IMG/VR virus record: IMGVR_UViG_3300042344_000751
Coordinates: 1 to 27,887 of that record
DNA: 27,887 nucleotides
Source: a virus
Reading direction: 5' to 3' (one strand)
In this document: positions 2,916 through 21,270 of the stretch, one piece after another
How positions within the stretch are numbered: the first letter of the stretch is position 1
Layout of the letters: each line of letters starts with the position of its first letter
The notes under the pieces: generated by a model
Seen by the model: only the letters and a program-made list of their open reading frames with translations
What the model was told of the DNA's origin: nothing
Databases searched by the model: none
Program-made: the position numbers and the translations under genes

Positions 2916-3872
2916 ATGATTGATCGTAGAATAGGGAAGATTAAAGTTAGGAGAGGAACTAATGATTGTAGAAAGACTATAATCTTTGATGAAGGTGAAC
3001 TTCTTTATACTACAGATACAAAAAGAATGTATGTTGGTGATGGTAAAACTTTAGGTGGTATTTTAGTATCAAATAAAAACATCGTCACAGTGATGGATAG
3101 TACTATTGCAACAGATTCGATGGAATCTGGTGATTTAGTATATAATCAACGTAAAGATATTACATATATTGTTGATACTAATAGAACTTTAGTACCAATA
3201 TTAATTGGTTGTAGAGGATTGTTAGGCGTTTTTGAGAATTATCTTCCTTTAGCTGGAGGAACTATGTATGGAAGCATCAACATGGCAGATAATAAAGTTT
3301 ATGATGTTCCATGGCCAGCACAAAATAAAGATGCTGTTCCTAAAATTTACGTAGATAAGAGATATAAAGAACTCTATGATATTATGCTTGGATTGAAAAA
3401 GCAGTTAGATGATATTGGAGATGATATATTTCTTGTTCTTGAAAATGATAAAAATAAGAGAACTTATAATGTATTACTTCAAAATAACAAGAACATATAT
3501 TCTGAAGGAGAGACTGCTGTATTTTTGCTTGATACTGTTAATGTTCCTAATGAAACAGTATTATACTGGGAAATTTTAGGAACGATTACAGCACCAGATA
3601 TTTTAGGAAATATATATACTGGAGAAGTTACAATTAATAATAATAAGGGAACTATTAATGTATCATTTTTAGTTGATAGTATACCAGCAGAAGTTGAGAC
3701 GGCTAGATTATTATTAAAAGATGCTAGTGGTGTATTTTTGGCAGCTAGTCCTATAATAACACTAAGAGATGAAGTTGTGAATGAAGTTGGTAGATTGTTA
3801 ACTACTGATGGAACACCTATTGATACTTCAGAAGGTAATAATATTTTATCGGAGGGGATTTCAATTAGTTAA
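2916..3872 (+). CDS. Fibre protein with Mtd-like N-terminal domain and Calx-beta-like C-terminal domain (318 aa)
   Basis: Residues ~6-50 (KIKVRRGTNDCRKTIIFDEGELLYTTDT then RMYVGDG) match the N-terminal domain of phage fibre proteins related to the major tropism determinant (RRGT...GEL.Y.TDT.R.Y.GDG). Residues ~112-150 carry the common fibre repeat GGTMYGSINMADNKV..VPWP..N.DAV.K.YVDKRY. A short probable helix follows at ~150-175. Residues ~185-300 resemble a Calx-beta/SVQ-type Ig-fold (YSEGETAVFLLDTVNVPN then ETVLYWEILGTI..PDI.G...GEVTINN). Mtd_N domains are trimeric fibre anchors in characterised phages. The gene precedes the first collar-RCC1 gene, so it may be the shaft partner of that tip. 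The pairing is inference; the domain calls are fairly secure. Confidence 0.72.
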   Translation: MIDRRIGKIKVRRGTNDCRKTIIFDEGELLYTTDTKRMYVGDGKTLGGILVSNKNIVTVMDSTIATDSMESGDLVYNQRKDITYIVDTNRTLVPILIGCRGLLGVFENYLPLAGGTMYGSINMADNKVYDVPWPAQNKDAVPKIYVDKRYKELYDIMLGLKKQLDDIGDDIFLVLENDKNKRTYNVLLQNNKNIYSEGETAVFLLDTVNVPNETVLYWEILGTITAPDILGNIYTGEVTINNNKGTINVSFLVDSIPAEVETARLLLKDASGVFLAASPIITLRDEVVNEVGRLLTTDGTPIDTSEGNNILSEGISIS

Positions 3873-3891: not shown

Positions 3892-6051
3892 ATGTCCGAC
3901 ATTAAGATTAATGATATTCCTTTATTGACTGGCGCATTAAAAGGGGATGCAACAACAGTTGTTGTTCAGAATTTAGATACCAGAAGAATTACTATACAAT
4001 CTCTTTCTGCTATTATAGCTAATGCTGTTCCTTCGGATACTCCAGTTGGACAAGTATCATTTTTTGCTACTACGGTTCCACCTAATGGTTGGATAGAATG
4101 TAAAGGTACTAGATTGAATATTGTTGGTGAATTTAATGAACTTTATAAAGTTATTGGTCATACATTTACAGATATATTAAATCCTTCTGTAGATAAAACA
4201 AAATATTTTTATGCTCCAGATTTAAGAGGATATTTTATTAGAGCATTAGATAATGGAGCTAATGTTGATGAAGATGTTAGTAGAAAGTTGGGAAGTATTC
4301 AAGAAGATAGCATTGAAAAACATACACATAATATTCAAACTACTGTAAATTCAGGAGGTGTTGCAGCTTCTAATTATCCTCCAGATTCTAATACAAATCC
4401 ATTATATGATGTTCCTACATCAGAAACTGGTGGTGTTGAAACACGACCAAAGAATGTAGCATTAATGGCATGTATTAAATATTCTGCTGCTAAAGGTCCA
4501 GCAACTCCAGTAACACCAACTAATCCAACTACTAATTCTGGTATAGATATATCTACAAATTCTGGTAATGTTGGTAGTGTTACAGGATTAAAATTTACAG
4601 GAAATGTTGATGTAACTAAAACTGGTGATGTAGCAACTATAAATGTTAAAAGTTCTGGTTCTGGCGGTCGTCCAAATGTTTTGGGATTTCCAGTATTTAA
4701 GGATTCTTATTGGACAAGATGTGTAATAACGGATGAACCATCTTTAATTGGTTGGGGTACACATGCTTACGATAAAGATGGTGCGTGGAGAAATATGGAC
4801 CCATATGTTGCTTTAGTTAATCCACCTAGTAGATATAGATTTGATAATTTTTATTTGATTGATAATCCAGATTTAAAAATTGTAAAAGCTATATCTTCGG
4901 TATATTTTCAATGTGTATTACTAAGTGATGGTACATTATGGGTTAATGGATATGATTATGCTGATGGAAGGACTGGGTTGGGCAACAAGAATAATAAAAG
5001 CACTAATGGGTTTAAGAAAGTTAATACTAATATTAAATTTTCTGATTTTGATATTTCAGTAGATAATGATAGTGGAAATATTAGTTTTGCAGCTATTGAA
5101 ACTGGGACAAAAAAATTATATACTTGGGGTCTAAATGGTTTTGGACAATTAGGACAAGGTTCAACTACTGTTGTAGATAAACCAACATTAGTATCTGATA
5201 ATTCAACGAAAGCTGTTAGACAAGTTGTTTTCTCTGCTCATAGTAAAACAGGTGAATCAAAATTATTGGTATTATATGATGATAATACGTTGTATGCTTG
5301 TGGCTATAATAATTATGGTCAATTGGGGATAGGAAACACTACAAATCAAACAAAATTAACTCAATGCAAAAAGAATAGTACTACATTAGTTTCTGATGCT
5401 AAAAGAATCGTTGAGAGTGGGTGGGGTAATTATTATAATAGTGGTTATATTAGCACATCAGATGAATTTTATGCGTGTGGATATAATGGTGTTGGGAATA
5501 TCGGTGATGGAACTAAAACTAATTCAAGCTTTTTTTTAAAATCAAATATACCAGAAAAAGTAAAAGATGTGGTTACTTCTTCGGGGTATAATTATGGTAC
5601 AAATTATTTGGCATTAGGAATGTCTGGGAAAATGTATTCATGGGGTAGAAATGCTCATGGCCAATTAGGACATGGTAATACAACAGAAATAACTTCTCCA
5701 AAATTAATACAAAGCATGTCTGGAATTCCAATACAAAAAATATTTGGTTACGATGGTTGGGGTGATGGTAGAGCATTTGGTTGCTTGGATACTAATGGTA
5801 GAGTTTATATGACTGGATATAATATACCTGAACCTCCAGACTTTTTATTAAGTCAAAGCACAACTAGCTATACTAGAATGAATGTTCCAGATAAAGTTGT
5901 TGATATGGTGTTATTGGGTGGTGATAATAATCAAGGACATTTTTATGCTGCATTATTTTTAACTCAGGGTGGTAAAGTGTTTTCTTTCGGGCATTATAGT
6001 AATATTGAAAGCAATACGTCTACATCATTTCCTGTAGAAATAAGAATTTAA
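3892..6051 (+). CDS. Tail fibre with phage tail collar domain and C-terminal RCC1-like beta-propeller (719 aa)
   Basis: Three modules are visible. Residues 1-45 (SDIKINDIPLLTG...VVVQNLDTRRITIQSLSAII) are the short fibre adaptor shared with the gene at 6066. Residues ~50-200 are a phage tail collar domain: PVGQVSFFATT.PPNGWIEC.G, PDLRGYFIRALD at 109-120, GS.QEDS..KHTHN at 134-147, and ETRPKNVALMACIKY near 183-197. From residue ~285 to the end come RCC1-type repeats with strands such as LYTWGLNGFGQLGQGS, LYACGYNNYGQLGIGN and MYSWGRNAHGQLGHGN. I count about seven blades, plus a first/last strand pair that could close the ring. Collar domains occur in short tail fibres and baseplate fibres. The propeller probably forms the receptor-binding tip, though its target is unknown. 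Confidence 0.82.
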   Translation: MSDIKINDIPLLTGALKGDATTVVVQNLDTRRITIQSLSAIIANAVPSDTPVGQVSFFATTVPPNGWIECKGTRLNIVGEFNELYKVIGHTFTDILNPSVDKTKYFYAPDLRGYFIRALDNGANVDEDVSRKLGSIQEDSIEKHTHNIQTTVNSGGVAASNYPPDSNTNPLYDVPTSETGGVETRPKNVALMACIKYSAAKGPATPVTPTNPTTNSGIDISTNSGNVGSVTGLKFTGNVDVTKTGDVATINVKSSGSGGRPNVLGFPVFKDSYWTRCVITDEPSLIGWGTHAYDKDGAWRNMDPYVALVNPPSRYRFDNFYLIDNPDLKIVKAISSVYFQCVLLSDGTLWVNGYDYADGRTGLGNKNNKSTNGFKKVNTNIKFSDFDISVDNDSGNISFAAIETGTKKLYTWGLNGFGQLGQGSTTVVDKPTLVSDNSTKAVRQVVFSAHSKTGESKLLVLYDDNTLYACGYNNYGQLGIGNTTNQTKLTQCKKNSTTLVSDAKRIVESGWGNYYNSGYISTSDEFYACGYNGVGNIGDGTKTNSSFFLKSNIPEKVKDVVTSSGYNYGTNYLALGMSGKMYSWGRNAHGQLGHGNTTEITSPKLIQSMSGIPIQKIFGYDGWGDGRAFGCLDTNGRVYMTGYNIPEPPDFLLSQSTTSYTRMNVPDKVVDMVLLGGDNNQGHFYAALFLTQGGKVFSFGHYSNIESNTSTSFPVEIRI

Positions 6052-6053
6052 TA

Positions 6054-6060
6054 TTAAATA
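6054..6060 (+). promoter_or_regulatory. Late-promoter-like box TTAAATA
   Basis: The box ends 5 nt before the ATG at 6066 and starts just after the stop codon at 6049-6051. The following genes at 8325 and 9301 have short gaps and no exact box, so they probably share its transcript. Confidence 0.5.
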
Positions 6061-6065
6061 AAGTT

Positions 6066-8318
6066 ATGTCTGATGTAAGAATAGATGAAATACCCTTATT
6101 AAACACGCCATCTTCTCCTCTTAAGGGAAGTGCTAGTGCTGTTATATTACAAGATAATAGTACATTAAGAGTTAGAGTATCTGCTTTATCTTCAACTATT
6201 TATGATGCTGTAGTTGAAAACAATCCATCAGATATACCAGTTGGTCAAATAGCTTTTTTTGCTAGAAATACAGCACCTGAAGGTTGGTTAGTTTGTGATG
6301 GAACATTATTAATAAGAGGCACACCATCATCTCCGGGATTATATGATGCATTATATGAGGCTATTGGAACTACTTTTAATAGAAATACTGATACAGATAC
6401 TACAAAATTTAGAATACCAGATTTAAGAGGGAAATTTTTAAGATCATGGCAAGATAGTCCTACTGGGGATGATGCTGGTAGAGTGTTTGGAAGTTATCAA
6501 GAAGATGCATTAAAGTCACATAGACACGAATTGAAGGACAATGCTGGACCTGATGGAGATAATGATAGTCGTTTTGATTCTGGTGGTCAGGCACAAGCTG
6601 AAGCAGAAACCGTATATACTCAATATACTGGTGGGGATGAAACTCGTCCTAAAAATATAGCATTATTAGCATGTATAAGATATGCTCAAGTTAAAGTCTC
6701 TTCATCTATTACGAATCCATTAATTGCACCTAATTCTGGTATTACTGTTAAAGTTGGTGATACATTATATAGTAATGTAAAAGATCTAGAAATTATTGGA
6801 AGCGAAGTAACAGCAGTTAAGCAAAATGATTTATTGAAGCTATCTTTAGATAAGATAGAATCTACAACTGATACAAATACAAATACAGAAATTAATACAA
6901 TTAAAACTACGGATAAAATTGTTGATGTTGTTAGAAGACCAATAATATTAGGGATAGTTCCAGATTACTTGAATAGAAATGAAAGGTTGATTATTACATC
7001 TGATCCAGCTATTGTTGCATGGGGTAATAATTTTGAAAATAATTTAGATCCAAAAGCGAATGATGTATGGCCTCCTCAAAGAGTAAGATTTGAGGATAAT
7101 TTTTTATTTGAAAATAGAAATATTAAATTTACTAAAGTTTTAACGAGTTCTTATTGGAAATTGGCATTATTAAGTGATGGATCTTTATGGATTTGTGGTT
7201 ATGCTAATAATATTGCTTATCTTGGTATACCTAAAAATCTTAAAACAGCAGGATTTGTAAAAATTAATACGTCGATAAAGTTTAAAGATGTGGATTTTGC
7301 TGTAGATAATAATGGTAGAGATATATCAATTGCTGGAATTGGTATTGATAATAAATTATATACTTGGGGTAGAAATGATGCTGGTGAATGTGGTCATGGG
7401 AGCAAGACTGCAATAAGTGGTCCAACATTGGTAGAAAGTGTTAAAACTAAAGACGTTAAACAAGTAGTTATGTCAGCAAATGATGGGGCTACTTGTAATA
7501 TGAAAGTGTTATTTACAGATGGAACGTTGTGGGCTAGTGGAAGTAATGGTCAAGGACAATTAGGCGTTAAGGATAATACAGAAAAAACAACATTAACTCA
7601 GTGTAAAGACAGTGCAGGAACTGCTATAACTAATATTAAATTTATAGTTAAAGGAAATTGGCCAAATCTATTTCAAGGTGCTTGTGTATCTAATGATGGT
7701 AAAGTGTATACATGCGGTAGAAATAATAATGGACATTTAGGACTTGGAGATAAAACGGATAGAAATTATTATAGTCAAGTGACAATACCTGATAATAAAA
7801 AAATTGTTTCTATGGTTGGAACTGCCTATAATACAAATACCTCTTATATGGCATTGGATGAAGATGGTAGCATTTATACGTGGGGTAATAATAGTTATGG
7901 ATTAATAGGTGATGGTACTAGAAATGTAAGAGTATCTCCATATAAAGTTACTAATGGTAAAATAGCTTCCGTTAAAATTGCTAAATTATATGCTTCTGGT
8001 GGTTATGGTAATACCAGTGCATTTGGTTGTATTGATGTAAATAAAAATGTTTGGATGGCTGGATATTATATACCAGATTATCTTAGTTATGGTGATAACT
8101 ATTCTTCAACATTTATAAAAATGCCAATTAATTCTGTAGAAGACATGGTGATGCATTCTGGTTATAGTGCTGATTTTAATACACATTATAATCATATGGC
8201 TACTACATTTTTAGTTGAAAATAGTAGAATTTTTAGTTTTGGTATTAATGGTAAATCATCAACATTTGGTGCAAGACAAGAGGATTATATGTTCCCAGTT
8301 GAAGTATTCGTATCTTAA
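6066..8318 (+). CDS. Tail fibre with phage tail collar domain and C-terminal RCC1-like beta-propeller (750 aa), paralogue of the gene at 3892
   Basis: It has the same architecture as its upstream neighbour. An adaptor lies at residues 1-50 (SDVRIDEIPLLNT...SAVILQDNSTLRVRVSALSS). The collar domain lies at ~55-205, with VGQIAFFARNTAPEGWLVCD near 58, PDLRGKFLRSW near 118 and GDETRPKNIALLACIRYAQ near 193. RCC1-type repeats run from ~315 to the end, for example LYTWGRNDAGECGHGS, VYTCGRNNNGHLGLGD and IYTWGNNSYGLIGDGT. The two proteins align along their whole length but have diverged, so this is an older tandem duplication rather than a recent copy. A short linker with a TDTNTNTE run (~270-290) separates collar from propeller. 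The two probably offer alternative or complementary receptor tips; specificity is unknown. Confidence 0.82.
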   Translation: MSDVRIDEIPLLNTPSSPLKGSASAVILQDNSTLRVRVSALSSTIYDAVVENNPSDIPVGQIAFFARNTAPEGWLVCDGTLLIRGTPSSPGLYDALYEAIGTTFNRNTDTDTTKFRIPDLRGKFLRSWQDSPTGDDAGRVFGSYQEDALKSHRHELKDNAGPDGDNDSRFDSGGQAQAEAETVYTQYTGGDETRPKNIALLACIRYAQVKVSSSITNPLIAPNSGITVKVGDTLYSNVKDLEIIGSEVTAVKQNDLLKLSLDKIESTTDTNTNTEINTIKTTDKIVDVVRRPIILGIVPDYLNRNERLIITSDPAIVAWGNNFENNLDPKANDVWPPQRVRFEDNFLFENRNIKFTKVLTSSYWKLALLSDGSLWICGYANNIAYLGIPKNLKTAGFVKINTSIKFKDVDFAVDNNGRDISIAGIGIDNKLYTWGRNDAGECGHGSKTAISGPTLVESVKTKDVKQVVMSANDGATCNMKVLFTDGTLWASGSNGQGQLGVKDNTEKTTLTQCKDSAGTAITNIKFIVKGNWPNLFQGACVSNDGKVYTCGRNNNGHLGLGDKTDRNYYSQVTIPDNKKIVSMVGTAYNTNTSYMALDEDGSIYTWGNNSYGLIGDGTRNVRVSPYKVTNGKIASVKIAKLYASGGYGNTSAFGCIDVNKNVWMAGYYIPDYLSYGDNYSSTFIKMPINSVEDMVMHSGYSADFNTHYNHMATTFLVENSRIFSFGINGKSSTFGARQEDYMFPVEVFVS

Positions 8319-8324
8319 AAATTT

Positions 8325-9293
8325 ATGGCAGAACAAATTAAAGCAGTAATTAAGTTGCGCCGTGGCTCAGAACCTGAACGGTTAGCTACGTCTGTTCAAG
8401 AAGGTGAAATTGTATATTCTACCAATAAAAAAAGAGTTTATGTTGGAGATGGGGCGACTAATGGAGGAAATTTAGTTGGGAATAAAACTTTCTTTACTGA
8501 CAATGTTAGTAATCTAACATTAGCTACACAAGGAGATTTTTGGTATAATACTAGTACTAATATATTATATTCATTAACTGGTTCTGATTCAGTAGGATTT
8601 AATTCTTATAGGAGAATGAGTCAGTTGCCAGATAATTCTACAATAGAATTTAATTCAAATGGTCTTTTTAGCGTCAAATCAAGCGCATTAAATTTCTATC
8701 CAAAAGATGGTGGAAAAATTGGTGGTGATATTGACATGGATGGTACTTATAATATAATAAATCTTAAAGATCCAACATCACCTAAACATCCAGTAACATT
8801 AGGTTATTTTGATACAAAATTTGGAGACATCAACACAAAAATAAATCAATTAAGTTCTAGTTCTGATAATAAATTTGTCAAAAAAGAAGGTGATACAATG
8901 ACTGGTAAATTAACCATTCAAACAGCTGAAAGTGTTGCACTAGATTTGAAAAAGAATTTAACATTAAATGATAATTTAATTGAAAGATTTTCTCCTAAAA
9001 TAAAAACTATTACTGCTAGTACATATACTTTAACACAAGCTGATAATGGTTGTATACTTTGTTTTGAGCCAACAGCTGTTGGTAATATTGTTGTCACTGT
9101 TCCTAAATTATCTGTAGGATTTAATGCGATGTTTGTTCAAATGAAAACTGACACAGTATATGTCTTACCATCTGATAATACTGTATTAGTTCTTCAGCTT
9201 GATTCAAATCAAGCAATTAGAAAGCAATATGGTGTTGCTAATATTGTTTGTATAAAGGATTCTACTTATATATTATCTGGCGATTTAACTTAA
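8325..9293 (+). CDS. Mtd_N-type tail fibre shaft protein (322 aa)
   Basis: Residues ~6-50 form an Mtd-like N-terminal domain: AVIKLRRGSEPERLATSVQE, then GEIVYSTNKKRVYVGDGA. Two fibre shaft motifs follow: GGKIGGDIDMDG....INLKDP...K.PVTLGYFD near residues 128-163, and VKKEGDTMTGKLTIQ near 185-198. The last ~100 residues form a beta domain (TLTQADNGCILCF...TVPKL..GFNAMF...YILSGDLT) that is clearly homologous to the end of the 354-aa protein at 10891. The gene starts only 6 nt after the preceding stop, has no exact late box and is followed 7 nt later by a propeller gene. It and the next gene form a pair that is repeated at 10891-13092. The likely role is a trimeric shaft carrying the separate RCC1 tip; the pairing is inferred from gene order. 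Confidence 0.72.
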   Translation: MAEQIKAVIKLRRGSEPERLATSVQEGEIVYSTNKKRVYVGDGATNGGNLVGNKTFFTDNVSNLTLATQGDFWYNTSTNILYSLTGSDSVGFNSYRRMSQLPDNSTIEFNSNGLFSVKSSALNFYPKDGGKIGGDIDMDGTYNIINLKDPTSPKHPVTLGYFDTKFGDINTKINQLSSSSDNKFVKKEGDTMTGKLTIQTAESVALDLKKNLTLNDNLIERFSPKIKTITASTYTLTQADNGCILCFEPTAVGNIVVTVPKLSVGFNAMFVQMKTDTVYVLPSDNTVLVLQLDSNQAIRKQYGVANIVCIKDSTYILSGDLT

Positions 9294-9300
9294 TATCTAT

Positions 9301-10875
9301 ATGTTTGGTCTTCCCATATTGAGGAAATATAGTCAAGAATTTACACCGGGAGTAGGTGATCCATTAGAACCTAATAAACCAGTTAGACTAGCTTCTCCAT
9401 TGGCTGAAATGAGTGGTAATCACTATACAATGGGAGTTAGTATAAGTTGGATACATGTTGTTGCATGGGGAAGTAATTTTCCTTCAGATGGAGTCTTAGG
9501 ATTTTCTGGAACCTACAAAAAACCGACATTATCAAATATAAATAGAGCTACAGATCCTGTTTTGGGAGTGCCAGAAAAATCTAAAATTAAAAAGCTATCA
9601 TCAATTGGACAGGTATCCTTAGTATTAAGTGATATGGGATATTTATATGGAACTGGAGTAGATATTGGTGGTATTACTGGAAATGGGCATACTACACAAT
9701 TTAAATTAATAGATAGTGATGTTGTATATTATGATTTGTCTTCATATAATACTAATAATAATACATGGTGGTCTGCTAATGAAGCATCATTATTTTTAAT
9801 TAAAAAGAATGGTAGATTATATGGTAGAGGTAAGGATTATGGCGCATTTGGTGTTAGTGGGAATAAAACTACAACAACATATTTGAACATAGATAATGTT
9901 AAAAAAGTTTTTGCAACACAACCAGAAAATAAAGGTAAGACATTTGCATTAAAAAATGATGGCACAGTTTGGGCAACTGGTTGGAATACTGATGGAGTAT
10001 TGGGGATTGGAGAAAAATTAAATGAGAAGGCATCTACATGGTATCAAGTTATTAAATCGGATAACACGCCATTGAATAATGTTGTAGATATTATAACTAG
10101 TAATTTTATAGTTAAAGGTGGTGCTAATGATGGTGATATGGTTTGGAATGGTGTAAATGGAAATAGTCATCAATCTACAGTTTTTCTAACTAAAGATGGT
10201 GATGTATATTCTACTGGGAATAATTTGTATGGTCAACTTGGTTTAGGACAATCAATAACATATAAAGTCAATTATGCAACTAAAATAACAACATTATCAA
10301 ATATAGATAAAATATGTGGTTGTGCTGGAGGTATTAGTTTCATGGCTGTAGATAATAATAATACAGTTTATACTTGGGGGAATAATCATTGGGGTCAACT
10401 TGGTACTAATGATCAAGTTGATAGGAATGCTCCATATCAACATACTAAGTTTCTTGCTAATGGTGAAATTATTACTAGGATTAATGGTGGTGGATTGCAT
10501 AATACTGTTAATGGAGCATTTATAATGTGTACAAACTATGGAAATGTGTATTCATCTGGGTATAATTATACTAGAGCATTAGGATATGATGATGCGGATC
10601 TCATTAAAACAATTAGAAAGCATCCATATTTTGGTCCAGATGCTACAAAAAAAATAAAGAAATTTAATGATACGCCAGCAACATCTAATCTAAGGGCACT
10701 TGCATATGATTTAGATTTGTGTGGATATGGTACTGAAATGGCACAAAAGGTAATTACACCAGATGGAGTATTGTTTATGTGTGGATATAATCAGAATGTA
10801 GGTGGTACTAAAAACTTCAATCAAGATGAAGACGAAAAGGTATTAGTGCCTAGTGTCTTTATAATGCCTAGCTAA
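9301..10875 (+). CDS. Stand-alone RCC1-like beta-propeller, probable fibre tip (524 aa)
   Basis: The protein lacks the adaptor and collar modules and begins MFGLPILRK. RCC1-type strands run from about residue 50 to the end: VVAWGSN..SDGVLG, LYGTG, LYGRGKDYGAFG, VWATGWNTDGVLGIGE, VYSTGNNLYGQLGLGQ, VYTWGNNHWGQLGTND, VYSSGYNYTRALGYDD and a final LFMCGYNQN. This fits a roughly seven-bladed propeller closed by the N- and C-terminal strands. RCC1 is best known as a eukaryotic chromatin-bound exchange factor, but here the fold sits among fibre genes. The only reasonable inference is a surface-exposed adhesin. A near match to the late box (CTTAATA, one mismatch, 5 nt from the ATG) lies upstream, but the 7-nt gap suggests co-transcription with the shaft gene. 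The next propeller gene starts with a similar MFGLFTLRN. Confidence 0.78.
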   Translation: MFGLPILRKYSQEFTPGVGDPLEPNKPVRLASPLAEMSGNHYTMGVSISWIHVVAWGSNFPSDGVLGFSGTYKKPTLSNINRATDPVLGVPEKSKIKKLSSIGQVSLVLSDMGYLYGTGVDIGGITGNGHTTQFKLIDSDVVYYDLSSYNTNNNTWWSANEASLFLIKKNGRLYGRGKDYGAFGVSGNKTTTTYLNIDNVKKVFATQPENKGKTFALKNDGTVWATGWNTDGVLGIGEKLNEKASTWYQVIKSDNTPLNNVVDIITSNFIVKGGANDGDMVWNGVNGNSHQSTVFLTKDGDVYSTGNNLYGQLGLGQSITYKVNYATKITTLSNIDKICGCAGGISFMAVDNNNTVYTWGNNHWGQLGTNDQVDRNAPYQHTKFLANGEIITRINGGGLHNTVNGAFIMCTNYGNVYSSGYNYTRALGYDDADLIKTIRKHPYFGPDATKKIKKFNDTPATSNLRALAYDLDLCGYGTEMAQKVITPDGVLFMCGYNQNVGGTKNFNQDEDEKVLVPSVFIMPS

Positions 10876-13099: not shown

Positions 13100-13131
13100 T
13101 TGACATTTGACAAAAAATTTTTTAATATAAT
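13100..13131 (+). promoter_or_regulatory. Sigma70-like promoter elements (TTGACA ... TATAAT) before the nuclease island
   Basis: Two overlapping-register TTGACA hexamers lie at 13100-13105 and 13107-13112, and a perfect TATAAT lies at 13126-13131. The spacers are 20 and 13 bp, neither near the optimal 17. TATAAT ends only 3 nt before the ATG at 13135, so a start site at the usual distance would fall at about 13138, inside the gene. The elements are perfect matches but the geometry is odd; transcription may come from elsewhere. Confidence 0.4.
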
Positions 13132-13134
13132 CCC

Positions 13135-13857
13135 ATGCCAATTGTATTAGACGAAGAAAGTCATATCTATACGAATACTGACACTGGTGAAAAGTATACT
13201 TCTGTAAGTAAGCTCATTTCAACGTATAAGAAGCCATTTGATAGCGATCTTCATAGTAAAAGAGTCTCTCAAAGAGAAGGGGTTTCTCAAGATGAGATTT
13301 TAAATCGATGGAAAGAACTTACAGTAACTGCTCAAAACAGGGGAACTAAAATCCATTTGATTATGGAAGAGTTTCTCAAGCATAAAAAGGTACAAAAGGG
13401 ATACGAGAAGCTTGCTCAATCGTTTGTTAGTAAGGCTTCATATATTATCAACAACAAATCAATTGTTGAAAGTGAAAAGATTTTACATAACCATGACTAT
13501 AAACTTGCTGGTACAGCTGACATGGTTGTTACTAATGGAAATTTCTTTCATATTTTAGATTTTAAGACAAATAAAGCCTTTAATTTTACTAGTAAGTACA
13601 ATAACTATTTTTATGAACCGTTAGATTTTCTTTCAGAATGTGAGTTTAATACATATACAATACAATTGTCTGTGTATGCATATATGTACGAACTCATGAC
13701 TGGGAAGAAATGTGCTGGACTCAAGATTCTCTATTATAGGTCATTTGAGGACAAAACATTTTGGCAAGAAATTGCGGCATCATACATAAAACCATCAATA
13801 AAACTAATATTAGAAGATTATAAACAAAAAACCGATAGTAAACAAAATGCAGTCTAA
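13135..13857 (+). CDS. PD-(D/E)XK nuclease, RecB/Cas4-like (240 aa)
   Basis: The RecB-family nuclease motifs are present in order: a conserved His in NRGTKIH (H74); an acidic residue in AGTADMVV (D129); ILDFKTNK with D142 and K144 as the D-x-K pair; and QLSVYAYMYE with Q177 and Y181. The N-terminal stretch H.YTNTDTGEKYTSVSKLIS is typical of phage members and supports the ATG at 13135; an in-frame stop lies just upstream at 13123. Only two cysteines are present, so the iron-sulfur cluster of Cas4 is absent. It probably acts on phage or host DNA during replication, recombination or host-genome degradation. It is the first of three overlapping genes lying between structural genes. Leu codons CTT and CTC are commoner here than in the fibre genes, where TTA dominates. 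Confidence 0.8.
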   Translation: MPIVLDEESHIYTNTDTGEKYTSVSKLISTYKKPFDSDLHSKRVSQREGVSQDEILNRWKELTVTAQNRGTKIHLIMEEFLKHKKVQKGYEKLAQSFVSKASYIINNKSIVESEKILHNHDYKLAGTADMVVTNGNFFHILDFKTNKAFNFTSKYNNYFYEPLDFLSECEFNTYTIQLSVYAYMYELMTGKKCAGLKILYYRSFEDKTFWQEIAASYIKPSIKLILEDYKQKTDSKQNAV

Positions 13858-14338
13858 CATTATTAACAAACACGGTAAAGATTCAGTACAAAACTTTTGG
13901 ATCTTTGTTGATTCATTAAGTTTTGATTCATCAAAAAAGGCTTCATCAGCAACTAAACAGTTGATTTTGAAGAAATTGTCTCCTACCTTAGCTGGTACTT
14001 ACAAAGATATTTGCGATCAACTAGCCTTATCTTTATACAAGCAAGTATATGCTGTTAAGGGTAATCAATATATTCATTATTGCTACGAAGCAGTAAGTAG
14101 AGGAGAGAGTTTTTACGAAAACTGCTGGACTAATCCAGATGTTATTGAAGCTATTATTTCAAGTGTAGATAAATTTAATGATTTTGGTACTTGCTTTCCT
14201 GTAGAAGATGATTATTATTGTGTTCCTTCTGAGAAAGCTTCTTCTGGAGAAGAATTTTTCGAGGATGAATTTGACGATTATGGAACATATGAATTCAGAA
14301 AACGAGGAAAGCACGACAAGTTCGAAGAGGAAGTATAA
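13847..14338 (+). CDS. DUF4240-like protein (163 aa)
   Basis: The gene overlaps the end of the nuclease gene by 11 bp, suggesting translational coupling. The N-terminal half fits the DUF4240 pattern as I recall it: a leading FW (residues 17-18, in VQNFWIFVDSLSFD), a helical middle, then YIHYCYEAVSRGESFYENCW followed by TNPDV (residues ~76-100). The function of that family is not known to me. The C-terminal 45 residues are strongly acidic (EEFFEDEFDDYGTYEF) and end in a charged tail. No signal peptide or membrane segment is seen. The family assignment comes from motif memory alone and could be wrong. A role alongside the nuclease in DNA metabolism or takeover is suggested only by gene order. 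Confidence 0.6.
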   Translation: MQSNIINKHGKDSVQNFWIFVDSLSFDSSKKASSATKQLILKKLSPTLAGTYKDICDQLALSLYKQVYAVKGNQYIHYCYEAVSRGESFYENCWTNPDVIEAIISSVDKFNDFGTCFPVEDDYYCVPSEKASSGEEFFEDEFDDYGTYEFRKRGKHDKFEEEV

Positions 14339-14579
14339 CTCTGATAAAAGGAGAGCTAAAATTGATGATCTAGTTACAGCAGCTAAGAGTTTTCAATTTT
14401 CTTATACAAGGGTTCCTATCGATCTTAATAAAGATATTGATGAGCTTAAAAAATTGACTCAAGATGCTTGTCTAAGACCAGATTTGTTTTTGGATGCTGA
14501 TAGCACTTGTGATTTGTGTAATCTTTATACAAATTGTGCTTGCAAGATTAGAAATCTTTCTAAGAAAAAACGTAAATAA
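14280..14579 (+). CDS. Small basic Cys-rich protein of unknown function (99 aa)
   Basis: I do not recognise this protein. It overlaps the 3' end of the DUF4240-like gene in another frame. Candidate starts are the ATGs at 14265, 14280 and 14289. I chose 14280 because the residues encoded upstream look like an out-of-frame reading of the neighbour; 14289 is nearly as likely. None has a clear ribosome binding site, though a GAGG sits just before 14265. The protein has a basic N-terminal region (SKRKYNSDKRRAK), a helical middle and a C-terminal cysteine group (C64, then CDLCNLYTNCACK at 77-89), ending in KKKRK. The cysteine spacing could bind a metal ion, and the charge would suit nucleic-acid binding, but both are guesses. 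It is the last gene before the hairpin at 14587. Confidence 0.6.
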   Translation: MEHMNSENEESTTSSKRKYNSDKRRAKIDDLVTAAKSFQFSYTRVPIDLNKDIDELKKLTQDACLRPDLFLDADSTCDLCNLYTNCACKIRNLSKKKRK

Positions 14580-14586
14580 GAGATTC

Positions 14587-14624
14587 TCTAACGCCATTTA
14601 GATAAATATTTGAATGGCGTTAGA
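14587..14624 (+). promoter_or_regulatory. Inverted repeat/RNA hairpin enclosing late-promoter box and ATG of the 1439-aa fibre
   Basis: Bases 14587-14598 (TCTAACGCCATT) and 14613-14624 (AATGGCGTTAGA) are perfect reverse complements over 12 bp. Allowing two G-U pairs, the RNA stem extends to 17 bp (14587-14603 with 14608-14624), leaving a 4-nt loop at 14604-14607. The start codon 14614-14616 is inside the right arm. No U-tract follows, so it is not a standard terminator. It would block initiation on transcripts that read through from upstream. Confidence 0.7.
14601..14608 (+). promoter_or_regulatory. Late-promoter-like box GATAAATA inside the hairpin
   Basis: The box ends 5 nt before the ATG at 14614 and spans the inner stem and loop. 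It differs from T4 TATAAATA only at the first base. A transcript starting the usual distance downstream would begin at or next to the ATG and lack the left hairpin arm. Confidence 0.6.
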
Positions 14625-17600
14625 AGTTAAATTGATTGAACCTCCCAAGTACGGAAGTGTATCTTGGAATGGTGTTAAATGGGTTTACACACCAAACACC
14701 AATTATCCTGAAGACTATACGGATAGTTGGTTATATGCATTAAATGTTGATGGTGTCGTCTCTAAGGGTATTACAGAGTATTATAACCCAAAGAATCAGG
14801 TTCCATTATCAATTAATCCATTATTTCTAGTAGACCCTAGATCTAAATATCGAATTTCTGTTAGAGATTTAGTTGTTGATGACTATATTACCATAGATAA
14901 GCTTAGAATTTTATATATTGGAACTCCTAAGAATGGTAAAATTCAAATAAGTGAAACCCAAGACTTTTTTACATATGAAGCTAATAATGCTCTGAATGCT
15001 ATTGAGGAACTTTCATATGTAGTTACTGATGGTCAATTTTTAACGGAAGGTGTATTTAAAATTAAATATGTTGCCCCAATCTTTTTGGGTACTAAGATTG
15101 TAGATTATGTAGCATATTTAAAATATTTGGTTGATACATTTGCTACAGTACCTCCAACATCAGGTAATTGGAATTCTGCTACATCTACAATATCTTCAAT
15201 TTCAGCAGAATGGTTGTCATTAAATACTGAAAAATATGATGCTGCGTTTGATTATGTAGAAGCAAATGATCAATTTTTAATTGCTAGTTATCAAAAAGAA
15301 CCATTTTATAGTGGATTAACTTCTTTAATAGAAACATATTCTGCTTCTTGGGATGATGTTTTAGTTGATGCTACTAATTTAAATACGTTATTATCTCCAT
15401 TAACTACGGTTTGGCAAAACAATACAGTATTTCTAAATTCTAAATACTTTTCTTGGAACGATAATATTCCTTTATATGATAGATTAAGTACATTATATTC
15501 TGCAAATACTTCGAAGTATGATGATGTATATTCTTTTATTAATTCATTATCTACATCATTTGATCCTACATCATTTAGGACTGCTTATGGAAATTTATCA
15601 TCTAAATGGGATGATGTTAGTAATACTGTAACTACTAAGAGATCTACATTCGGATTTGATGCATTTGCTACTAGAAAATATGATGCATTTGTAAGCACTG
15701 TATCAACATTATCAGTACAAATTCCAGCATTAAATACATTTACTAATACCAAGAATGCTTATTGGGCTAGTAATTCTTCTATTTCTTCAATTAGTGCAAC
15801 AGCATTATCAGGTGCAGCTACACAAAATCTAGTTTCTAGAAATTTAAATGTATTTAATGATTTAATTATTAAGAGCAATTTAAGAGTTTTAGGACCAAAA
15901 ACTCAAATTGATACTACATTAAATACTCTTTGTTCATTTGAAATTAAAAACGCTGGAACTGGTGATGCATTAACTGTAGATAAAACTGGTTTAAATAATG
16001 TGTTGCGTTTAGGTAATACATTATATGTAAAGAGTGTATCAAATAATGTTGGTATTAATTTTGATCCCAAATCTGATTCGCAAACATTAACAATTTCTGG
16101 TAATATATCTGCTACTGGTAAGATTTACCCTGATACTATTGGTGATCAAATGACTCTTTATAAGAGCGTTTCTTCTGGGTACGAAACAACTACAACATAT
16201 TTTACTAATAATTCTTCTACAGTTAATACATTTAGAACATCATTACCAGTATATGATAATGCTTATAATTATGTAAGAACTAATTCTGGTGATATTACTA
16301 GGTTATTAGCACCAGACTATTCGGCATTTGATGCATTTACTAAATCATCTTCTGGTGGTTCTGTATTAGGGTTAACATTAACTGGGGGAAATTATTTGTC
16401 TGGTGGTGGGAATATTGTAGATTTCAAAAACAAAGATTTTACAGTAGAAGCTTGGATTAAAATGCCAACATTACCTACTAATAATACAACAAATACATAT
16501 ACTGCTTCTTCATATACTTTACTAGGTTCTAGTGGTGTATCATTTGTAGTAAATCTTTCTACAATGTTTTGTGTTAATGGAGCAACGCCATTAAATGCTG
16601 CTGTTCATGGCATGAGTGCTAATAGGTGGCATCATGTAGCTTATGTTAGAAATGTTTCTACTGGAAATGTGGAATATTATGTTGATGGCTTTCGTAAAGC
16701 GACTGCACCATTACTTCCCACAGTTTCAATAGCTACATCACCTAGAACTGTTATTGGAGCATATAGTCCACCAGTTTCAGCAGATGCTAGATATTTCAAA
16801 GGTGCTATATCCAATTTAAAAGTTACTAATGGAGAAGCATTATATAAATCTAACTTTACTCCTAATCCAAATAAATTTTTAAATGATTCGTTTGTAGATA
16901 CTGTTCCATTATATTATAATGATGTTTCATTGTTATTAAGTGGAGAAGAACCACCTGTTATTGATAATAGTTTATCTGGTAGAACATTAATTACTGGTGC
17001 TGGAGTATCATCAGATCCATTATCTGCTAAGTTTGGGGATCACTCCATATATTTTAATGGAACTACTAATGCATTTTTAGATGTTGAATACGATTCTTCT
17101 TTAGATTTTTCTGGACAATTTTGTTTAGAATTTTGGTTTTGGAGTGGATCTAATACTGGTGAAAAGGGATTGTTTACTAAGAGTGGTGGAACAGTTGGAT
17201 GGAATATTGCAAATGGTCATGAAGTCTCATTATTTTTGCAAAATAATAATTTCATTGCTAGATATAATTCAACTGGTCAGGCTAATGGTGTAACATTAAG
17301 TGGCGTTGATTCGGTAATTACTGTTAATGATTGGAATCATTGTGCTTTAACATATGATGGAACAACATATAGATCATATTTGAATGGTAAAGTTACTGGA
17401 ACAAGTATTTTACCATTAGCATTACCAACTACTAGAAATAGAGTTAGATTTGGTGATACATTTAAAGCAGCTATTCCGTTTGCTAATTTCTTAGGTTATA
17501 TTAATGGTATTAGATATACTAAAGGACAAGCAAGGTATACTACAACTACAATAGATCCAACTACAATACAAGCAACATATTCTAATTTAAATAATGTTAC

Positions 17601-18933
17601 ATTATTAATAAATCAAAGAAATTCTTCAGCTAGTGTTGATGCTAAAAATAATATTTTAATAAAAGATTCTAGTAATAGAAAAAATCAATTTACATTCTGG
17701 GGACAACCAGTAGTTTCTAAAAAGAAACCATATGCTGGTGCTGGTAATAGTATATATTTCGATTCATTTAGTAATATTAGTATAAATGGGTCTGCAACAA
17801 ATAAAGCATTAGATTTTTCTGGTGTAGGTGATTGGACAATAGATTTTTGGATTAATTTTAGTAAAATTTCTGCTACTCAAGCAATATTTGGTGGTAATGG
17901 TGGAGAATCGATTCAAAATAATATTATTTGTCAAATGCAAGCATCTAACTATTTGGGTTGGTGGATACAAGGATCGGCTAGATGGAATGTAACTGATGGT
18001 GATAGTATTAAATTAATTCCAGCTGTGCAACAAAATACTTGGTATCATTGTATTATAACTAGAAAGGCGAACGAAATTTATCAATATCTAGATGGCGTAT
18101 TAGTAAATTTAGTAAGTTCTACATTAGCAATAAACAAACGAACTGTAGATTTAGTTATAGGTTCGTTTTTAAATAAAACGAATCCATTCCAAGGTTATTT
18201 GTGTGATATGAGATTTACACAAGGTAAGAGTTTATATTCTCCATATACATATTATAAACCAGCTACTGCGGCAATATTCAAAGATAAAATTGAATATAAT
18301 ACATCTAGTGTATCATTATTAACTTTACAAGACACTAATTTCTTAGATGGAAGCATACTTAATAATACATTAACTGCTGTTGGAGTTATGGCATATGAAC
18401 CAACTAGTGTTACAACACCTAGATTATCAGCAATTGGTAGTATTACAATGTCTACATTGAGTAGTATTAGTGCTGTCATGGATAAAGATGCTAACTTTAG
18501 AACTAATGCAAATAAATTAGACGAAGCCGTAACCTTCGTAAACAATACAATTCCAGCAGGATATGATGAAACTAATTATTTTTATCAGTTTAATAATGTA
18601 ACTGGAACAACAGCTTCTGGATTAGTATATGTACCGAAAGCATGTAAAATTAATGAAGTATTTGTTTATACTGATGTTAATACTAGCTTGGAAGTAGATG
18701 TTTTATCTTGTGTAAAGGGAGTTATAGATTTCCCAAATCAAACAAGATCATTGATTGATAAAACTATAGGTGCTGCTCCAGTAGTTTTAAATTCTGAAAT
18801 TAAAAAGTCTGATAAAATTTTAAACAAATGGGTTACAACATTAGACGATGCTACTACTCTTAGAATTGATGTTAAATCTAATACAATAGCTAAAGATGTT
18901 AATGTTGTAATCAACACTACTAAATTAACCTAA
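14614..18933 (+). CDS. Long tail fibre/adhesin with cadherin-like N-terminus, Trp-repeat shaft, three LamG domains (1439 aa)
   Basis: Residues ~8-155 hold two cadherin/VCBS-like Ig modules (PPKYGSVSWNGVKWVYTPN..., then GTPKNGKIQIS...LSYVVTDGQF). Residues ~180-400 are a helical shaft with recurrent S.W/N..W spacing. Residues ~424-510 are a beta shaft segment (LRVLGPKTQID...GDALTVDKTG...VGINFDP...LTISGNISATGKI), like the region before chaperone or tip domains in other marine phage fibres. Three LamG (concanavalin A-like) domains follow at ~586-750, ~806-982 and ~1043-1210, each with F..E.W or F.IDFWI near the start and W.H...T......Y.DG in the middle. The last ~130 residues match the C-terminus of the next gene. 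LamG domains usually bind glycans, so this is probably a major host-recognition fibre. The start is fixed by the late box and hairpin. Confidence 0.82.
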   Translation: MALEVKLIEPPKYGSVSWNGVKWVYTPNTNYPEDYTDSWLYALNVDGVVSKGITEYYNPKNQVPLSINPLFLVDPRSKYRISVRDLVVDDYITIDKLRILYIGTPKNGKIQISETQDFFTYEANNALNAIEELSYVVTDGQFLTEGVFKIKYVAPIFLGTKIVDYVAYLKYLVDTFATVPPTSGNWNSATSTISSISAEWLSLNTEKYDAAFDYVEANDQFLIASYQKEPFYSGLTSLIETYSASWDDVLVDATNLNTLLSPLTTVWQNNTVFLNSKYFSWNDNIPLYDRLSTLYSANTSKYDDVYSFINSLSTSFDPTSFRTAYGNLSSKWDDVSNTVTTKRSTFGFDAFATRKYDAFVSTVSTLSVQIPALNTFTNTKNAYWASNSSISSISATALSGAATQNLVSRNLNVFNDLIIKSNLRVLGPKTQIDTTLNTLCSFEIKNAGTGDALTVDKTGLNNVLRLGNTLYVKSVSNNVGINFDPKSDSQTLTISGNISATGKIYPDTIGDQMTLYKSVSSGYETTTTYFTNNSSTVNTFRTSLPVYDNAYNYVRTNSGDITRLLAPDYSAFDAFTKSSSGGSVLGLTLTGGNYLSGGGNIVDFKNKDFTVEAWIKMPTLPTNNTTNTYTASSYTLLGSSGVSFVVNLSTMFCVNGATPLNAAVHGMSANRWHHVAYVRNVSTGNVEYYVDGFRKATAPLLPTVSIATSPRTVIGAYSPPVSADARYFKGAISNLKVTNGEALYKSNFTPNPNKFLNDSFVDTVPLYYNDVSLLLSGEEPPVIDNSLSGRTLITGAGVSSDPLSAKFGDHSIYFNGTTNAFLDVEYDSSLDFSGQFCLEFWFWSGSNTGEKGLFTKSGGTVGWNIANGHEVSLFLQNNNFIARYNSTGQANGVTLSGVDSVITVNDWNHCALTYDGTTYRSYLNGKVTGTSILPLALPTTRNRVRFGDTFKAAIPFANFLGYINGIRYTKGQARYTTTTIDPTTIQATYSNLNNVTLLINQRNSSASVDAKNNILIKDSSNRKNQFTFWGQPVVSKKKPYAGAGNSIYFDSFSNISINGSATNKALDFSGVGDWTIDFWINFSKISATQAIFGGNGGESIQNNIICQMQASNYLGWWIQGSARWNVTDGDSIKLIPAVQQNTWYHCIITRKANEIYQYLDGVLVNLVSSTLAINKRTVDLVIGSFLNKTNPFQGYLCDMRFTQGKSLYSPYTYYKPATAAIFKDKIEYNTSSVSLLTLQDTNFLDGSILNNTLTAVGVMAYEPTSVTTPRLSAIGSITMSTLSSISAVMDKDANFRTNANKLDEAVTFVNNTIPAGYDETNYFYQFNNVTGTTASGLVYVPKACKINEVFVYTDVNTSLEVDVLSCVKGVIDFPNQTRSLIDKTIGAAPVVLNSEIKKSDKILNKWVTTLDDATTLRIDVKSNTIAKDVNVVINTTKLT

Positions 18934-21212: not shown

Positions 21213-21229
21213 AATAAAATATAATAAAA

Positions 21230-21270
21230 AACCCCCTTCAACTTATCGTTGAAGGGGGTTAAATTTTTTT
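21230..21270. terminator. Bidirectional intrinsic terminator between convergent gene sets
   Basis: A perfect 13-bp stem is formed by 21230-21242 and 21248-21260 (GTTGAAGGGGGTT on the right arm) with the loop TTATC. A run of seven T (21264-21270) follows on the + strand, and an A-run (21225-21231) on the left supplies the U-tract for the - strand. It lies between the + fibre stop at 21212 and the - strand stop at 21269-21271, whose TAA overlaps the T-run. Confidence 0.93.

Follow-up and report, generated by a model that had tools for sequence, protein, structure and literature searches.

The start codon of a large fibre-like gene in an uncultured viral relative of phage T4 lies inside an inverted repeat that also holds a late promoter box, which raises the question of whether this repeat acts in RNA as a lock that ties synthesis of the fibre to late transcription. 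The window, i.e., the whole stretch of 27,887 nucleotides that was analyzed, is a 27.9-kb virus record encoding tail and fibre-like proteins, among whose products Mtd_N, collar, RCC1-repeat and LamG domains can be recognized. Two segments of it (3892-8318 and 9301-10875) encode RCC1-like repeats (PF00415), which in a 719-aa protein are fused to a phage tail collar domain. Two neighbours, of 750 aa and 524 aa, resemble this protein in sequence. RCC1 propellers are unusual in tail proteins.

A 17-bp stem that encloses late box and fibre ATG

The gene in question (14614-18933, + strand) encodes a fibre-like protein of 1439 aa with three LamG (Laminin_G_3) domains, and its N-terminal domain is common to the fibre and the product of the next gene. 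On the same strand, the hairpin occupies positions 14587-14624: a left arm UCUAACGCCAUUUAGAU (14587-14603), which is non-coding and precedes the 5' end predicted for late RNA, is joined through the loop AAAU (14604-14607) to a right arm AUUUGAAUGGCGUUAGA (14608-14624), which contains the fibre ATG (14614-14616) plus codons 2-4. The 17 pairs of the stem are contiguous; the outer 12 are of the Watson-Crick type and the inner five include two G-U pairs. The original prediction, which had described a perfect 12-bp repeat extending to 17 bp with two G-U pairs around a 4-nt loop, was correct to the base. It had also put the start codon of the fibre in the right arm, where it is, and a late-type box over the inner stem and loop, the place occupied by the T4-type late promoter box GATAAATA (14601-14608, + strand), a member of the NATAAATA class.

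Folding of RNA with and without the bases before 14613, the comparison that the original prediction had proposed as a check, gave a clear difference: RNA of 14560-14680 folds at -34.1 kcal/mol (z = -5.15), a value equalled in none of 200 shuffles, whereas RNA of 14613-14680, which lacks the left arm, folds at -11.7 (z = -0.67). The AUG is almost never free in the read-through RNA (probability of being unpaired 0.001) but mostly so in RNA beginning at the AUG (0.90), and the energy needed to open the start region is 19.4 kcal/mol in the long RNA versus 1.2 in the AUG-start RNA. The stable stem of the long RNA sequesters the AUG only, a Shine-Dalgarno (SD) sequence being absent. At the 13 other starts of the window the cost of opening in long RNA is 2.5-12.4 kcal/mol, in agreement with the claim that no other start region carries a comparable stem. 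Across 69 late-box starts from five related contigs, the mean folding energy is -8.0 and the next-best value -15.7, as against -23 for the hairpin and -22.6 for its orthologue. When both strands of the window were folded in sliding segments of 45 nt, the sole stronger structure was a perfect 13-bp GC-rich hairpin at 21229-21262, which has T tails on both strands and, lying between convergent tail-gene arrays, is a bidirectional terminator.

The upstream exonuclease block and the nearest relative

RNAs reaching the fibre gene from upstream would carry the left arm, and they would come chiefly from a sigma70-type promoter (TTGACA-17-TAATAT; 13100-13128, + strand). This promoter heads three + strand genes without late boxes, which form the only sigma70-led block within the tail-gene array: a PD-(D/E)XK exonuclease (PF12705, phrog_298; 13135-13857), a 163-aa gene (13847-14338) and a 123-aa ORF (14208-14579) whose true start is probably further in, the latter two without an assigned function. 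A counterpart of the promoter (TTGACT-17-TATTAT) stands at the same place in the nearest relative, and between the exonuclease block and the fibre ATG at 14614 the + strand carries no T-tailed terminator, an arrangement that would permit read-through into the fibre gene. Because sigma70-like matches as good as this one commonly arise by chance, the block can be called early only presumptively. The boundary between an early or middle island and a late gene that the original prediction saw at this point thus stands as far as the missing late boxes and the sigma70-like promoter go, with its timing presumptive. Its "nuclease island" likewise holds in part: the exonuclease plus two genes are present, but the nuclease is not a homing endonuclease, the upstream gene belonging to PF12705 and phrog_298 rather than to a GIY-YIG, HNH or similar family. 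The stop codon of the 123-aa ORF precedes the fibre ATG by 34 nt, compared with 3-19 nt between most + strand neighbours, a gap which suggests that the stem may additionally stop re-initiation from the preceding gene.

In protein and DNA-pattern scans of IMG/VR, the only further copy of the junction was found in contig IMGVR_UViG_3300044620_000913 (L003/G001), and named phages yielded no DNA match to the window. The fibre N-terminus is 82% and the exonuclease 93% identical between the two, and the hairpin is identical letter for letter, with five differences at positions just upstream of the left arm and with neighbouring genes that differ at 22-39% of fourfold sites. As this single relative keeps the hairpin unchanged, there are no compensatory changes to count. 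The identity moderately favours selection on the left arm; however, the start at 8325, which has no hairpin, lies in a 59-nt run that is identical in the relative as well, and we therefore read the argument from conservation as weak to moderate. The fibre itself is 1439 aa long in the window (14614-18933) and 1205 aa in the relative (L003:8001-11618), probably reflecting another number of LamG domains. Conservation of the stem in more distant exonuclease relatives (L011-L026) was considered and rejected: in these, the last bases of the upstream gene can form 4-8 bp with the ATG of the late gene, but the pairing is not kept across members.

Box spacing and predicted leaderless late messages

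The NATAAATA box is the late motif of marine T4-like cyanophages (cyanomyoviruses; PMC2984593), and in T4 itself the late box spans positions -13 to -6, with A(-13) as its first base (PMC2988020). Because the box of the fibre gene ends 5 nt before the ATG, T4 geometry would put the late transcription start on the A of the AUG (14614, + strand), beyond the left arm; a gap of 5-6 nt would place it there or within 1 nt. Nine genes of the window have an NTAAATA box, 5 nt before the ATG in six and 6 nt before it in three, and an SD-like motif is found in none of the 17 window ORFs of at least 100 aa and in none of the nine box genes. The box-to-ATG spacing also peaks at 5 nt in three related contigs (G001, G003 and G004) and at 5-6 nt in another (G005). 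The clade sequences in which NTAAATA stands 5-6 nt before the ATG comprise the window, L032-L043, L267-L270 and the Pelagibacter phage HTVC008M (Kyanoviridae; L045/L150/L151). In HTVC008M the distance is 5 nt for 8 of the 11 ORFs that have a box within the first 50 kb and for 12 of 15 sites before annotated ATGs genome-wide, and a late sigma factor is annotated; unlike the window, this phage has no hairpin around any box. At two of its late boxes, 6280 (L045:6280) and 75559 (L150:25559), a T-run terminator lies directly upstream, which is another way to insulate a late gene. In the structural region of T4, box-to-ATG distances cluster at about 24-28 nt and 12 of 13 genes have an SD, and in the syn9 region the distances are at least 20 nt.

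With the box fixed 5-6 nt before the ATG and no SD, the late mRNAs of this marine T4-like clade, including HTVC008M, are predicted from box geometry to be leaderless, and the box itself might play a translational role. We give even odds to a broader, two-state scheme that would do without leader and SD: late mRNAs would start at or within 1 nt of the AUG, the choice of promoter would create the translation start, and the hairpin would be an off-switch for longer RNAs. Our search of the open-access literature on marine T4-like phages turned up neither hairpins of this kind nor leaderless late mRNAs, and a metagenomic study states that late-promoter prediction failed for pelagimyophages (PMC7029224). 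Over the whole window (1-27887), ATAAATA is strongly under-represented (12 found versus 33 expected), as would be the case if selection acted against stray late boxes.

Recurrence of box hairpins and the reading as a temporal switch

We scanned IMG/VR for the pattern GCCAT-N2-9-ATAAATA-N5-ATGGC, using a GCCTA core as the control. The 5-bp core was not enriched (103 stretches versus 111 for the control), and the similarity of these counts indicates that short stems occur by chance. Not so long stems: those of at least 10 bp were present in 9 of 32 gene families with the complementary core versus 1 of 32 with the control core (p = 0.006), and the single control outlier, a tail sheath gene (L241), is itself a 13-bp hairpin with mismatches. 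Divergent late genes with interleaved late boxes, as at 3372/3407 in G004 (L040-L043) and in L148, form palindromes of 13-17 bp that resemble hairpins at start codons and are a source of false positives.

The best hairpin of the scan, in IMGVR_UViG_3300045432_000021 (L113/G005), has an 18-bp stem around ATAAATA and the ATG, with a probability of the AUG being unpaired of 0.001 versus 0.71. There, too, an exonuclease of the same family (43% identical) is followed by a block of small genes and then by the hairpin, which belongs to the gene for a protein of 1037 aa whose match to a phage tail tip is weak; we found no relatives of this gene besides itself. Since its arms are unrelated to those of the window, save where ATGGC forces the sequence, the two phages seem to have come by this layout independently, through separate origin or through drift, at boundaries that are comparable. 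In this contig the boundary is not purely early-to-late: two genes of the block carry late boxes of their own. Further stems occur at a homing-endonuclease-like gene with NUMOD3, which has ATG and late box inside a 14-bp hairpin (L145:2573-3403; L061:187), at the gene for a virion protein of a 518-kb contig (L101, 14 bp), downstream of a helicase-like gene (L097, 13 bp) and in L074 (14 bp). The 12-bp hairpin of L087 belongs to a neck gene, i.e., a late gene without an obvious early neighbour, and its family (homologues in L063, L068, L090 and L120) shows one paired substitution, from GTAGCCAT/ATGGCTAC to GGGCCAT/ATGGCCAC; the three named phages that were checked for this gene family have no such hairpin. 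Among 360 unselected late-box starts, stems that cover the ATG are not generally enriched, and the hairpin device is therefore rare and gene-specific.

We favour, at a probability of about 0.72, the reading of the hairpin as a lock that acts in cis on translation and makes synthesis of the 1439-aa fibre depend on late transcription. When the left arm is present, the stem would fold and bury the AUG, with no SD to help. RNA polymerase with the late sigma factor of the phage would initiate at GATAAATA, and the resulting RNA, without the left arm, the loop and the inner part of the right arm, would begin with 5'-AUG and be read as a leaderless mRNA. The temporal switch put forward in the original prediction is, in our judgement, the best explanation of the locus: the geometry of stem, box and ATG fits it, and the independent 18-bp hairpin of G005 sits at a matching place. 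The extra lock may matter little if internal AUGs without an SD are poorly used anyway.

The hairpin could instead be a processing or stability element, which would either set the fibre message apart through an RNase III-type cut or shield the exonuclease mRNA at its 3' end. A long perfect stem in an intercistronic gap, without a U tract, is compatible with such a role; we nevertheless consider it unlikely, as 17 bp is short for RNase III and as it leaves unexplained both the register of stem, late box and ATG and its recurrence in G005, L101, L097 and L145. Somewhat more doubtful still is a palindrome without function, arisen by chance or by recent template switching. A 17-bp stem appears in 7 of 100 dinucleotide shuffles of the whole window when coverage of a start codon is not required, and the unselected late-box starts lack a general excess of stems, but a chance stem that also covers one of the roughly 14 gene starts is unlikely, by our estimate about one in a thousand. 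Moreover, the stem coincides with a start codon and a late box at the only sigma70-led block of the tail-gene array, is conserved in G001 and has its 18-bp counterpart in G005.

Action at the level of DNA, either as an operator at which a dimeric protein would cover the late promoter or as overlapping divergent promoters, has some precedent: I-TevI represses its own promoter, a 12-bp perfect inverted repeat flanks the box, and divergent overlapping late boxes form palindromes elsewhere (G004 3372/3407). We regard it as quite improbable, because the site has neither a second box nor a divergent ORF of at least 60 aa, and because the inner extension requires G-U pairs, which exist in the sense RNA only: on the antisense strand both become A.C and the stem drops to about -16, indicating that the full stem belongs to the sense RNA and not to a DNA site. 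An intrinsic terminator of the exonuclease block, which would account for a strong stem after the block's last gene and for which HTVC008M, with real terminators directly before some late boxes, offers a parallel, is hardly credible, since on neither strand is the stem followed by a T run (what follows is AGTTAAATTG), the terminator scan made no call there, and the termination point would fall within the fibre ORF.

Read as a translational lock, the fibre hairpin has counterparts in cultured phages. The precedents named in the original prediction are real: in T4 e, soc, 49 and I-TevI, the SD and/or the AUG is held in a helix on long transcripts, and the hairpin of gene e has a 100-fold effect (PMC3014915); further hairpin cases are I-TevII, I-TevIII, T4 segB and Aeh1 mobE (PMC2988022). 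As in the first four genes, the stem hides the initiation region and the late promoter would yield RNA without the 5' strand. However, the late transcripts of those genes keep an SD leader, whereas the fibre gene has none, its AUG is what is buried, and its +1 is predicted at the AUG; the fibre differs, too, in that its late box spans the inner stem and loop and that the gene encodes a tail fibre. The T4 model would thus carry over for the hidden AUG but not for the SD and the leader of the late message. Like I-TevII, I-TevIII, segB and mobE, the fibre would be a late gene in or after a presumptive early or middle unit that combines a hairpin with a promoter of its own (late or middle in those genes), but their hairpins hide the SD of homing endonucleases, and the gene behind the PD-(D/E)XK exonuclease block is a structural one. 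Closer to I-TevI and mobE in this respect is the homing-endonuclease-like gene of L145, an SD-less metagenomic counterpart of their control.

What would be new relative to the T4 device is that the hairpin appears to act on messages without any leader. If true, the lock at the fibre gene brings uncultured marine phages, and a structural gene of the tail, under a form of control known from few T4 genes, and the clade-wide rule of a late box 5-6 nt before the ATG predicts leaderless late mRNAs in abundant phages of the ocean.
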